DNA from: Fibrobacter sp. UWT2 | GTDB lineage: Bacteria; Fibrobacterota; Fibrobacteria; Fibrobacterales; Fibrobacteraceae | Assembly: GCF_900142545.1 (NCBI RefSeq) | Contig: NZ_FRBF01000001.1 | Location: 62,001-126,000 of the forward strand | Length of the DNA stretch: 64,000 nt | Direction of reading: 5' to 3' | Part shown: one piece after another, positions 19,138-38,520 of the stretch | Position numbering within the stretch: position 1 is the first letter of the stretch | Layout of the letters: each line of letters starts with the position of its first letter | The notes under the pieces: generated by a model | Seen by the model: the letters and a program-made list of their open reading frames with translations, nothing else | Told to the model about the DNA's origin: nothing | The model's database searches: none | Position numbers and translations under genes: made by a program

Positions 19138-20355
19138 ATGTACACTGTATTGGAAAAAGGCGGCGTTTGTTCCCCGAAGGGATTCACCGCATCTGGTATT
19201 TGTGCAGGCATTAAGGCCAGCGGAAACGCTGACATGGCTCTTTTGAAGAGCGAAAAGGCTGCACGTTGCTTTGCCGTGTTTACAACGAACAAGGTGAAGG
19301 CTGCTCCGGTGCTTTACGACAAAGCCGCTCTTGAACACGCCCACTTTGCTTCTGCTGTCGTGGTGAACAGCGGTAACGCAAACGCCTGTACCGGCGAACA
19401 GGGCCTGCGCGATGCAGAACGCATGGCTGTCCTTACCGAAGAAGCCTTGAAGCTTACCCCGAAGAGCGTACTCGTTTGCAGCACCGGTGTGATCGGCCAC
19501 CTGATGCCGATGGACAAGATTGAAGCCGGTATCCCGAAGCTTGTCGAAAAGCTCCACGCCGATGCTTCCGAAGAATTTGGCCGCGCCATTCTGACGACTG
19601 ACCTTGCGCTCAAGAGCCATGCCGTTGAAATCCAGACCGAAAAGGGTGTGGTGACGATTGGTGGCGCCTGCAAGGGCTCGGGCATGATTCACCCGAACAT
19701 GGCCACGATGCTTGCTTTTATTACGACTGACCTTGCTTTGCCGATTGATTTCTTTGCTGAATTCCGCGCCGACATCGCTGATTCCTTCAATGCGATTACG
19801 GTCGATGGCGACACCAGCACGAACGACACTTGCATTCTCTTGGCTAACGGCATGAGCGGCCTCAAGTACGAAGACTTGACGCTCACCGAACAGGGTGAAT
19901 TCCGTGCAGCACTCATGCTCGTGATGAAGGAACTTGCCAAGGATATCGTTCGCGACGGCGAAGGTGCTACCAAGCTGATTGAACTTTGCATCGAAAAGGC
20001 CGAAAGCCACGAAGAGGCTTTGCGCATGGCCCGTTTCATTGGTACGTCTAACTTGGCCAAGTGCGCTATGTTCGGCGAAGACCCGAACTGGGGCCGTATC
20101 CTCAGCAGTGCCGGTTCCAGCGGTTGCAATATGATCGCCGAACAGACGGACCTTTTCTTTGGCGACGTGCAGGTGCTTTCTAATGGCCGCCCGGTGCAAC
20201 TCGACGAAGAACAGACCAAGGCTCTGCGTGCGGTAGTCCGCCAGCGTGAATACAAAGTAACGCTCGTTCTTAACATCGGTCATGCTAGCGCTAGCGCATT
20301 CACTTGCGACTTGAGTTACGACTACGTTAAAATTAATGCAGAATACACAACGTAG
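19138..20355 (+). CDS. argJ: Arginine biosynthesis bifunctional protein ArgJ
   Basis: Ornithine acetyltransferase / amino-acid acetyltransferase of 405 residues, giving the cyclic arginine pathway. The autocleavage site is visible as HPNMATML near residue 190 (cleavage before Thr). GNANACTGEQG and EDPNWGRILSSAGSSG are conserved. The gene has a TATAAT box at 19103-19108 and a good ribosome site (ATAGGAGATACT). No other arg genes are nearby. The 3' end runs straight into a tandem repeat. Confidence 0.95.
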   Translation: MYTVLEKGGVCSPKGFTASGICAGIKASGNADMALLKSEKAARCFAVFTTNKVKAAPVLYDKAALEHAHFASAVVVNSGNANACTGEQGLRDAERMAVLTEEALKLTPKSVLVCSTGVIGHLMPMDKIEAGIPKLVEKLHADASEEFGRAILTTDLALKSHAVEIQTEKGVVTIGGACKGSGMIHPNMATMLAFITTDLALPIDFFAEFRADIADSFNAITVDGDTSTNDTCILLANGMSGLKYEDLTLTEQGEFRAALMLVMKELAKDIVRDGEGATKLIELCIEKAESHEEALRMARFIGTSNLAKCAMFGEDPNWGRILSSAGSSGCNMIAEQTDLFFGDVQVLSNGRPVQLDEEQTKALRAVVRQREYKVTLVLNIGHASASAFTCDLSYDYVKINAEYTT

Positions 20356-20383
20356 TAGGAAGTAGACAGTAGGAAGTAGACAG
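20356..20383. repeat. Two tandem copies of a 14-bp unit after argJ
   Basis: TAGGAAGTAGACAG occurs twice in tandem immediately after the argJ stop codon. A related stretch occurs in reverse orientation at 38479-38520, sharing GAAGTAGACAGTAGGAAGTA, and a variant lies inside the UvrA-like gene at 24548-24580. The second copy can also pair with ACTGTTTAC at 20400-20408. Confidence 0.8.
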
Positions 20384-20440
20384 TGGTTGTCTAACAAAGA
20401 CTGTTTACATGGTGTTTTCTAGCGTGAACAACATTTAGTA

Positions 20441-23673: not shown

Positions 23674-26055
23674 TTATCTTGAAAGTTCCACTGCGTAGTC
23701 GGCGGCGTTGACGAAGTCTTGCGCGTGCTCGATGGCGATGACGGTGTGGCCCGCTTCGGTGAGGCCGCGGATAAGGTCGAGTAGATGCTGGATGTCCTTT
23801 TGATGGAGACCACGTGCGGGTTCGTCGAAAAGGAAAAGCGTGTTCGGAGCCTTCGCGCGAGCGAGGGCGATGGAAAGGCGCAAGCGGGCGCGTTCACCGC
23901 CGGAGAGGTGCGTCGTAGTCTGTCCGAGTTTCAGGTAGTCGAGGCCCGTATCTACAAGCGGCTTGAGCTTGTCGGCGAAGGGCTTCATGTTGATGAATAG
24001 CTTGTAGGCGTCACCGACTTCTAGGTCATAGATGTCGGCGATGGAAAGCGACTTGAAGCGGACTTCGAGTATTTCATCCTTAAAGCGTCTGCCGAGGCAT
24101 ACGGGGCATTCGGATTCTTCGTAGCCCGCGGGGTCGAGGATAACGCCTTCGCCCTTGCAGTTTTCGCAGCGGCCCCCGGGGGCGTGCGTCGCGAACTTGC
24201 TGGCGGTGTAGCCGCGGACCTTGCTTTCGGGGAGTTTTGCGAACAAATCGCGGAGAATTGTGTTCAGGTTGATGGCCGAGGCAACGGTGCTGCGACGGTT
24301 TCCGTGGAAATCGCCTGTAGAAAGAATCGATAGAGCTTGGATGCCGAGACTTTCAAATTCACCCTTGGTGGCGCGTGGGGCAAGGTTCCTGAAGAAAATC
24401 GTGGACTTGCCGCTACCGCTCTGGCCCGTGATGACGCTGAATTTTTGAATCGGGAAATGCGCGGTGACCGGCTTCATGTCGAACATCGCGAAGTTCTCAA
24501 CATCGATAGTCGCGTCGCTACGCTTCTCGCTTTGACGTTTTAAATTTCTTCCTACTTCCGGCTTCCTACTTCCTACTTCTCTAATCCAATTCCCTGTGGG
24601 CGATACCGGATTGCCAAGAATTTCTTTTGCTGTTCCTTGCAACAGAATTTCTCCGCCTTTTTCGCCGGCGCCAGGACCCATTTCAATGATCCAGTCGGCT
24701 TTCTTGATGAGGGCGGGATTGTGGTCGATGAGGACGAGCGTGTTTCCGCGGGATTGAACCTTCTTGAGGACTTTCCAGAGGGCTTCCACGTCGCTCTGGT
24801 GCAAACCGCTGGCGGGTTCGTCGAGGACAATCAGGAGGTTGTTCAGGTGCCCGGTGCTGAGGCTCGAAAGCCGAAGTCTTTGGACTTCGCCACCCGACAG
24901 GGTGGCGCCTGCACGCCCTGCCGTAAGGTAACCGATGTCAAGGTCGACAATCGCCTGGATGCGGTCAATTAACGTGCGGAATGCGGGTTGCTGCTTTGCC
25001 GACAGTCGATTGTCAAACAGGGCGTGCAGCCGGCTTTCGAGTTCCGCGAAGGGCGTGTTCAAGATGTCTTGCCACGTGGTACGGATTTTGCGCGGCTCAT
25101 CTTCACTTGAAATACATTCAATCGCCGCGTTCAAAAAATTCTGCTTGAGTCTAAGTCCTTTGCAATCAGGGCATTCTTCGCTGTTGTCGCCGTCTTCGAT
25201 GATTCCGGTGCCGCCACATTTTTCGCAAACGCTCGTGCGGGAATACGGCGACAAGTCTTCTGGTGCGAGCGGTCTTGAAAGCTGCGCTCCATGTTCCGGG
25301 CAGCGTGGCACCGTGCTGAAAAGTTTGCGGTTCCCGTTGATGTCTAGAATCAATTCGCCGTGTGTGAGCTTCAAGACTCCATCGACTGCTTCGGCAATGC
25401 GGGTGCGCGTGTTCTCGCGAACAATCACGCGGTCTACGACAATAAAGAATTCCTTCGGGACAATCTTCTTTTCGTTTTCAGTCAAGTCGGCAAGCGAATA
25501 GCTGACTTCATCTGCCATGGCGCGCGTAAAGCCTTGCGCCAGGAACACCGCCGCCAACTTATCGAGACTTGTTCGTTTCTCAACATCAATCCGCGCAAAA
25601 AACTGCAGTTTGCTCCCTTGCGGCAGGCTTGCTATCTCGCGAATCATGTCTTCACGACTCATGCTTTCCATGGGCTTTCCGCAAATGGGGCAGGCAGGCT
25701 TCGCGTACGCTGCAAACAAGGCGCGCAATGTCGAATCGCATTCCGAAATGCTCAAGGCGTAAGCCTTTGCTGGCGTTTCGCCGTGACTTGGGCCAACGGC
25801 AAGGCTTGCGGGTAAACCTTCGGCGCTATCCAGCGGAATAATGCGACGACCGCCGAGCAGTTCCGCCGCAAACGGCGAAAGTGTTTCCAAATAGCGGCGT
25901 TTGGATTCCCCGTGCAGGGTGTCAAGCACAAGCGTCGACTTTCCGCAGCCCGAAGGTCCGCATACAACAGAAATCTTGCCCAGCGGGAACTGGGCATCGA
26001 TATTCTTTAAATTGTGCAGCCTACAGCCGCGAATGGAAATAAAGTTATTCAACAA
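23674..26055 (-). CDS. UvrA-like ABC ATPase (UvrA paralogue)
   Basis: Protein of 793 residues related to excinuclease subunit A but shorter than UvrA (about 940). Two ATPase modules: Walker A GPSGCGKST (about 33) and GQSGSGKST (about 545); signatures LSGGEVQRLRL and LSGGERARLRL; Walker B VLDEPASGLHQ and LFDEPARGLHQ. Zinc-type Cys pairs are present (CPICGK near 123; CEKCGG with CPDCKG; CENCKG with CPVCLG). Such paralogues act in DNA-damage or drug tolerance in some bacteria; the role here is open. Residues 491-502 (EVGSRKPEVGR region) are encoded by a copy of an intergenic repeat, between the two halves. The start is probably TTG and overlaps the end of the GLUG gene by 11 bases, so the two are cotranscribed. 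Confidence 0.75.
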   Translation of the reverse strand: MLNNFISIRGCRLHNLKNIDAQFPLGKISVVCGPSGCGKSTLVLDTLHGESKRRYLETLSPFAAELLGGRRIIPLDSAEGLPASLAVGPSHGETPAKAYALSISECDSTLRALFAAYAKPACPICGKPMESMSREDMIREIASLPQGSKLQFFARIDVEKRTSLDKLAAVFLAQGFTRAMADEVSYSLADLTENEKKIVPKEFFIVVDRVIVRENTRTRIAEAVDGVLKLTHGELILDINGNRKLFSTVPRCPEHGAQLSRPLAPEDLSPYSRTSVCEKCGGTGIIEDGDNSEECPDCKGLRLKQNFLNAAIECISSEDEPRKIRTTWQDILNTPFAELESRLHALFDNRLSAKQQPAFRTLIDRIQAIVDLDIGYLTAGRAGATLSGGEVQRLRLSSLSTGHLNNLLIVLDEPASGLHQSDVEALWKVLKKVQSRGNTLVLIDHNPALIKKADWIIEMGPGAGEKGGEILLQGTAKEILGNPVSPTGNWIREVGSRKPEVGRNLKRQSEKRSDATIDVENFAMFDMKPVTAHFPIQKFSVITGQSGSGKSTIFFRNLAPRATKGEFESLGIQALSILSTGDFHGNRRSTVASAINLNTILRDLFAKLPESKVRGYTASKFATHAPGGRCENCKGEGVILDPAGYEESECPVCLGRRFKDEILEVRFKSLSIADIYDLEVGDAYKLFINMKPFADKLKPLVDTGLDYLKLGQTTTHLSGGERARLRLSIALARAKAPNTLFLFDEPARGLHQKDIQHLLDLIRGLTEAGHTVIAIEHAQDFVNAADYAVELSR
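24548..24580. repeat. Intergenic-type repeat inside the UvrA-like gene
   Basis: On the minus strand the coding sequence reads GAAGTAGGAAGTAGGAAG, CCGGAAGTAGGAAG, the same word family as the intergenic repeats at 20356-20383 and 38479-38520. It keeps the reading frame open and encodes EVGSRKPEVGR in the linker between the two ATPase halves. Confidence 0.8.
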
Positions 26056-38478: not shown

Positions 38479-38520
38479 CTTCCTACTTCCTACTGTCTAC
38501 TTCTAACTTCCTACTCCTCT
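38479..38520. repeat. CTTCCTAC-type repeat abutting the next start codon
   Basis: Pyrimidine-rich words (CTTCCTACTTCCTAC, TGTCTACTTC, TAACTTCCTACTCCTCT) extend up to the ATG at 38521. Its reverse complement shares GAAGTAGACAGTAGGAAGTA with the repeat after argJ. No purine-rich ribosome site is present. Confidence 0.75.

Follow-up and report, generated by a model that had tools for sequence, protein, structure and literature searches.

The window, that is, the whole stretch of 64,000 nucleotides of Fibrobacter sp. UWT2 DNA that was analysed, carries on its reverse strand a gene for an ABC ATPase, within which an earlier note had seen an in-frame copy of a repeat that is also present between genes. 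The repeat words, their coordinates and the translation proved to be exactly as described there; the 793-aa open reading frame (ORF) is unbroken and the site is indeed the linker between two ATPase halves. The features are as follows, with the evidence in brackets.

23674–26055, reverse strand: gene for a UvrA-like ABC ATPase of 793 aa with two ATPase halves (ORF and profile matches)
24493–24582, reverse strand: linker joining the ATPase halves, residues 492–521, hypervariable in orthologues, 23–74 aa (57 distinct orthologues and UvrA alignment)
24546–24580, reverse strand: five-unit array AGAAGTA GGAAGTA GGAAGCC GGAAGTA GGAAGAA, in frame, encoding EVGSRKPEVGR (sequence, TRF and genome counts)
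24560–24566, reverse strand: variant heptamer GGAAGCC, through which the array escapes the TAG that pure GGAAGTA units would place in frame (in silico replacement)
24504–24538, reverse strand: decayed CGTC-type palindromic repeat of the ACGTCATTGCGAG...GCAATCC family, in frame (29/35 identity)
20354–20386, forward strand: intergenic heptamer member (GGAAGTA/GACAGTA), after argJ (sequence words and TRF)
38479–38515, reverse strand: second intergenic heptamer member of the window (outside long ORFs)

The 793-aa protein matched PF17760 (UvrA_inter), the UvrB-interaction domain, together with ABC_tran, and PDB UvrA chains matched it at an E value of 1e-139 in phmmer. At a Pfam E-value threshold of 0.001 the protein gave no match to the UvrA DNA-binding insertion domain. 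Because its match to TIGR00630 (UvrA; E 4e-169, 564.6 bits) does not reach the curated equivalog cut-off of 729.8 bits, the protein is best described as UvrA-like and would not be classed as a true UvrA. The genome also encodes a second UvrA-type protein of double length (1778 aa; L152, G000:C9:85379–90616), the linkers of which are ordinary and have no repeats in them.

The array is flanked by ...SPTGNWI and FAMFDM..., and alignment of the protein to solved UvrA chains with phmmer places it in the loop between the first and second ATPase domains (GEYLSGRKKIEVPKERRKPNGKW in 9gxk). In an AlphaFold2 model, itself weak (pTM 0.47), residues 497–513 have a pLDDT below 50 and are without secondary structure, which may hint at disorder in the linker.

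TRF also detects the array (24580–24546). With up to one mismatch GGAAGTAGGAAG occurs four times in the window against 0.19 expected, a number reached by no shuffle, and the doubled heptamer word GGAAGTAGGAAGTA has 42 copies in the genome compared with one for its reversed control, as befits a dispersed family and not a chance resemblance. The related words to which the earlier note had pointed, after argJ and before 38521, are real, and both members (20354–20386 and 38479–38515) fall outside plausible genes. There are 27 GGAAGTA arrays in this genome, of which 24 lie outside genes. With a 7-nt unit in tandem, many arrays and a mainly intergenic location, GGAAGTA is a dispersed heptameric tandem repeat.

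Directly behind the array, and filling most of the remaining linker, lies the palindrome at 24504–24538, which the earlier note had not noticed. This copy, ACGTCAAAGCGAGAAGCGTAGCGACGCGACTATCG, is identical to the CGTC-type consensus at 29 of 35 positions, where the best match elsewhere in the window scores 21, as do shuffles. The tag is kept, but the stem, mutated in each arm (AAAGC / CTATC), is no longer intact; it is a decayed copy from the CGTC-tagged REP superfamily. Intact relatives are present in the linkers of L108, L051 and L052.

Repeats in the linkers of Fibrobacter orthologues

A search of whole genomes and GTDB contigs yielded 57 distinct Fibrobacter orthologues with a readable linker, mostly from metagenome assemblies. 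The reading frame is open in 57/57, and the linkers differ in both length (23–74 aa) and sequence, so that the uniform linker which, according to the earlier note, would speak against an insertion is not what we find. A strict repeat word is present in 41 of the 57 linkers, whereas 2280 control segments of equal length from the same genes include 37 with such a word; among the 16 in which no strict word was found several look like decayed repeats. Seven repeat families occur in the linkers: three heptamers, three CGTC-tagged REPs and one 24-nt element (E). The heptamer and palindrome families are:

Heptamers: A (hepA), GGAAGTA; B (hepB), GGAATTM; C (hepC), GACGARA
Palindromes: REP-B (GTCATTGCGAG); REP-C (GTCATCCTGAGC); REP-D (GTCATYCCCG)

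The REP-B, REP-C and REP-D words of the linkers (CGTCATTGC..GCAAT, TGTCATCCT..AGGAT and GTCATTCCCGG..CCGGGAAT, respectively) have a CGTC/TGTC terminal tag followed by a stem starting AT, and on the strength of tag and stem may be placed in the CGTC-tagged REP superfamily as defined in PMC3733652. Like the members of that superfamily they exist in many dispersed copies: 4–84 per genome for the REP-C core (reversed control 0), up to 37 for REP-D (a lower bound, since the pattern misses short loops and a 5-nt loop must be allowed) and 0–11 for REP-B (again a lower bound, the pattern being strict). In composite linkers the heptamer stands ahead of the palindrome in 10 of 11 cases. In the linker of L048 (G019:C5:57280–57411) there is yet another dispersed hairpin (around GTACTTGAGCGAAGCGAAAGTAC), of which G019 and G005 have several copies at other places.

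When the presence or absence of the six commoner families is placed upon a tree of the flanks, at least 45 changes are needed in total, the minima being 4 for hepA, 6 for hepB, 10 for hepC, 7 for REP-B, 8 for REP-C and 10 for REP-D. The orthologue nearest to the window gene, with a flank protein 99% identical, is without the array and has REP-D in place of heptamer A; the window's repeat thus entered recently, as had been proposed. Since most relatives possess different repeats, and even this nearest orthologue a different one, the linker is a site of recurrent repeat turnover and not of one lucky insertion. Over the 280 codons after the linker dN/dS is 0.007–0.05 (window gene versus six relatives); purifying selection on the flanks is strong, and the second ATPase half must therefore be read and needed.

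Stop codons and repeats in other genes

Since 7 cannot be divided by 3, any array of at least three pure heptamer units is read in every phase. In silico, a pure GGAAGTA array cannot escape TAG when read forward and is open in reverse, and a GACGARA array is open in all six frames. The window array is read forward, and changing the CC of its GGAAGCC to TA creates a stop at the third unit. Of 46 units counted from other arrays in the window's genome, none is this variant; at the same position L051 and L076 have serine (GGAAGTC in L051).

Three of the 27 heptamer A arrays are inside genes, two in the open orientation and the third being that of the window, compared with 13 of 21 sampled heptamer C arrays in Pfam-supported genes (p 0.0005); these gene counts are small and depend on manual gene calls. 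At L197 and L202 the ORFs are antisense or unsupported and, having no Pfam support, were not counted; nor was L201, whose start codon is unsure. A LysE-family match at L014 was rejected as a coding array, the array preceding the likely start. The stop-avoiding cases, like the swapped linkers considered below, come from few sequences.

Among other conserved genes of the window's genome, in-frame heptamer C arrays were found in a 918-aa DNA topoisomerase (L204, two arrays), a HrpB-like helicase (L193), a DegT aminotransferase (L190), a radical SAM protein (L217) and, at L209, HemD and a two-domain CbiX/NAD-binding protein. An RlmL/K-like methyltransferase (L007 841–2247; G000:C2:81981–83387) has at least four in-frame repeat inserts, comprising heptamers A and C and two REP-D-like palindromes; the loops concerned also differ among its orthologues, whose open frames are 430–621 aa long where complete. 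Arrays at L011, L195, L213 and L218 appear to encode part of putative signal peptides or of hydrophobic segments at the N-terminus (e.g. FCLLPTSYFLLLF). It is conceivable, and we suggest it with some reserve, that Fibrobacter harbors an unusually active process which moves heptamer arrays and short palindromes genome-wide, into genes and between them alike, so that even among closely related species non-coding repeats have reshaped the interdomain linkers and surface loops of many conserved proteins.

Origin of the linker repeats

In all likelihood the linker in these gut bacteria is built in frame from the short repeats which fill the genome of each species, these being swapped so often that close relatives differ. 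The inter-ATPase linker of the Fibrobacter UvrA-like protein would be a tolerated and probably unstructured site, its content presumably neutral for the protein, at which the dispersed short repeats of the genome enter, expand, decay and replace one another. Their source would be the heptamer arrays and CGTC-tagged palindromes scattered genome-wide, many of them intergenic, and they might either insert directly or be brought in by exchange, ectopic or homologous, the heptamer block usually coming first in the linker with palindromes downstream. Variants which shift the frame or bring a stop would be removed by selection, and the repeat found in a linker would then mirror the repeat stock of the species, filtered for readable versions such as the GGAAGCC of the window.

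Direct insertion can be seen in L088, which corresponds to the empty L033 plus a clean 24-nt insertion inside the heptamer array, the rest being 85/87 identical. Across the linkers all three reading frames are used for REP-B and two for REP-C, which indicates that their arrivals were independent. Heptamer A is present in the linker in three of four hepA-rich genomes versus none of ten hepA-poor ones (Fisher p 0.011, among the genomes examined). In genome G004 heptamer C arrays are found near REP-C in 4/18 compared with 0.17 expected.

Alternatively, the linkers might mainly be exchanged ready-made between Fibrobacter species through homologous recombination of short tracts, with the conserved ATPase flanks as anchors. 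The DNA of L079 is 88–98% identical to that of L087 within 240 bases either side of the linker, but its linker shares 50% identity with the L087 linker and 92% with the linker of the distant L061; similarly, the linkers of L036 and L061 are 96% identical despite near flanks that are mostly 77–90% identical. Judging from these few sequences whole-linker exchange between species by recombination seems to occur as well. As the principal source of the linkers it is nevertheless unlikely, given that most linkers are unique, that hepA in the linker tracks the abundance of hepA in the host genome, that the 24-nt insertion in L088 is direct and that REP-B is read in every frame.

The earlier note suggested that the repeat might be mobile; a dedicated transposase for it did not turn up in the window's genome, and whole linkers also seem to be exchanged by recombination. 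A search of 16 Fibrobacter genomes, the window's included, found PF01797 (Y1 transposase, RAYT) in four; it is absent from the window's own genome. RAYT was therefore rejected as a general mover of the repeats, and the genome lacks the Y1 transposase by which a RAYT-mobilised REP (GTAG REPtron) is recognized.

The variation might instead be adaptive, tuning or diversifying the UvrA-like ATPase (for example its repair activity, or the mutation rate) with selection driving the turnover. Turnover at this linker is very fast, and in several species REPs have been reported within repair genes, uvrA among them, with the proposal that repair is altered (PMC3733652). We consider this improbable, however, as the same repeats occur in unrelated genes of this genome (aminotransferase, HemD, rRNA-methyltransferase-like protein, topoisomerase, radical SAM) and the linkers of the genome's other, double-length UvrA are ordinary.

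In the reading of the earlier note, a mobile repeat would have inserted recently, and once, and have chanced on a linker. A family dispersed genome-wide does lie in frame in a linker, and the nearest relatives are without GGAAGTA, but most relatives have other repeats at the same site, a second repeat is present in the window's own linker and other genes have been hit; one isolated event is thus very improbable. One could imagine that low-complexity coding DNA resembles the repeats by chance, or that the assembly is at fault, because charged linkers accept many sequences and many of the relatives are metagenome assemblies, but this is ruled out by the controls, the repeat words being about 20 to 40 times over control and the same kind of linker recurring, always in frame, in dozens of independent assemblies.

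The linker constitutes a natural, many-species record of non-coding repeats becoming protein sequence at one site, with clean empty and filled pairs. From this record one could measure the rate at which repeats enter genes, the frames which survive and the tolerance of UvrA-type linkers, and it allows one to test why repair genes turn up repeatedly among the genes listed as carrying REPs. It also serves as a warning that the length and sequence of loops in Fibrobacter proteins are poor markers of kinship.

Comparison with known repeat systems

The Rickettsia palindromic elements (RPE) are palindromic repeats which lie in frame in many unrelated genes and are tolerated by the protein. In Fibrobacter, too, palindromic repeats are in frame within unrelated genes; unlike the RPE, some of which are longer, the Fibrobacter units are 7-nt tandem arrays and palindromes of 25–40 nt, swapped at one site. 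Heptameric tandem repeats of the STRR type are dispersed and mainly intergenic in cyanobacteria and Xanthomonas, and small cyanobacterial elements nest inside heptamers. The 7-nt tandem repeats of Fibrobacter are likewise dispersed but have other units (GGAAGTA, GACGARA and GGAATTM). Heptamers are described as under-represented in coding regions (PMC4692102), whereas the stop-free heptamers of Fibrobacter are common inside genes.

Repeats within genes, uvrA included, are already known in other phyla. CGTC- and GTAG-tagged REPs have been described within genes, among them uvrA of Opitutus terrae and Thioalkalivibrio, with flexible linkers and loops mentioned as tolerated sites (Di Nocera et al. 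2013, PMC3733652); the RPE are cited there as well. Neither PMC3733652 nor PMC4692102 names Fibrobacter, and a literature search found nothing on Fibrobacter heptamers. The turnover at a single site, the mixture with heptamers, the stop rule and the Fibrobacter setting appear unreported in the literature searched. Like the REPs which Di Nocera et al. (PMC3733652) describe in uvrA and further repair genes, those of Fibrobacter are short tagged palindromes within a gene of the UvrA type; unlike there, Fibrobacter reuses one exact site for at least seven families, heptamers among them, with turnover over 57 orthologues.
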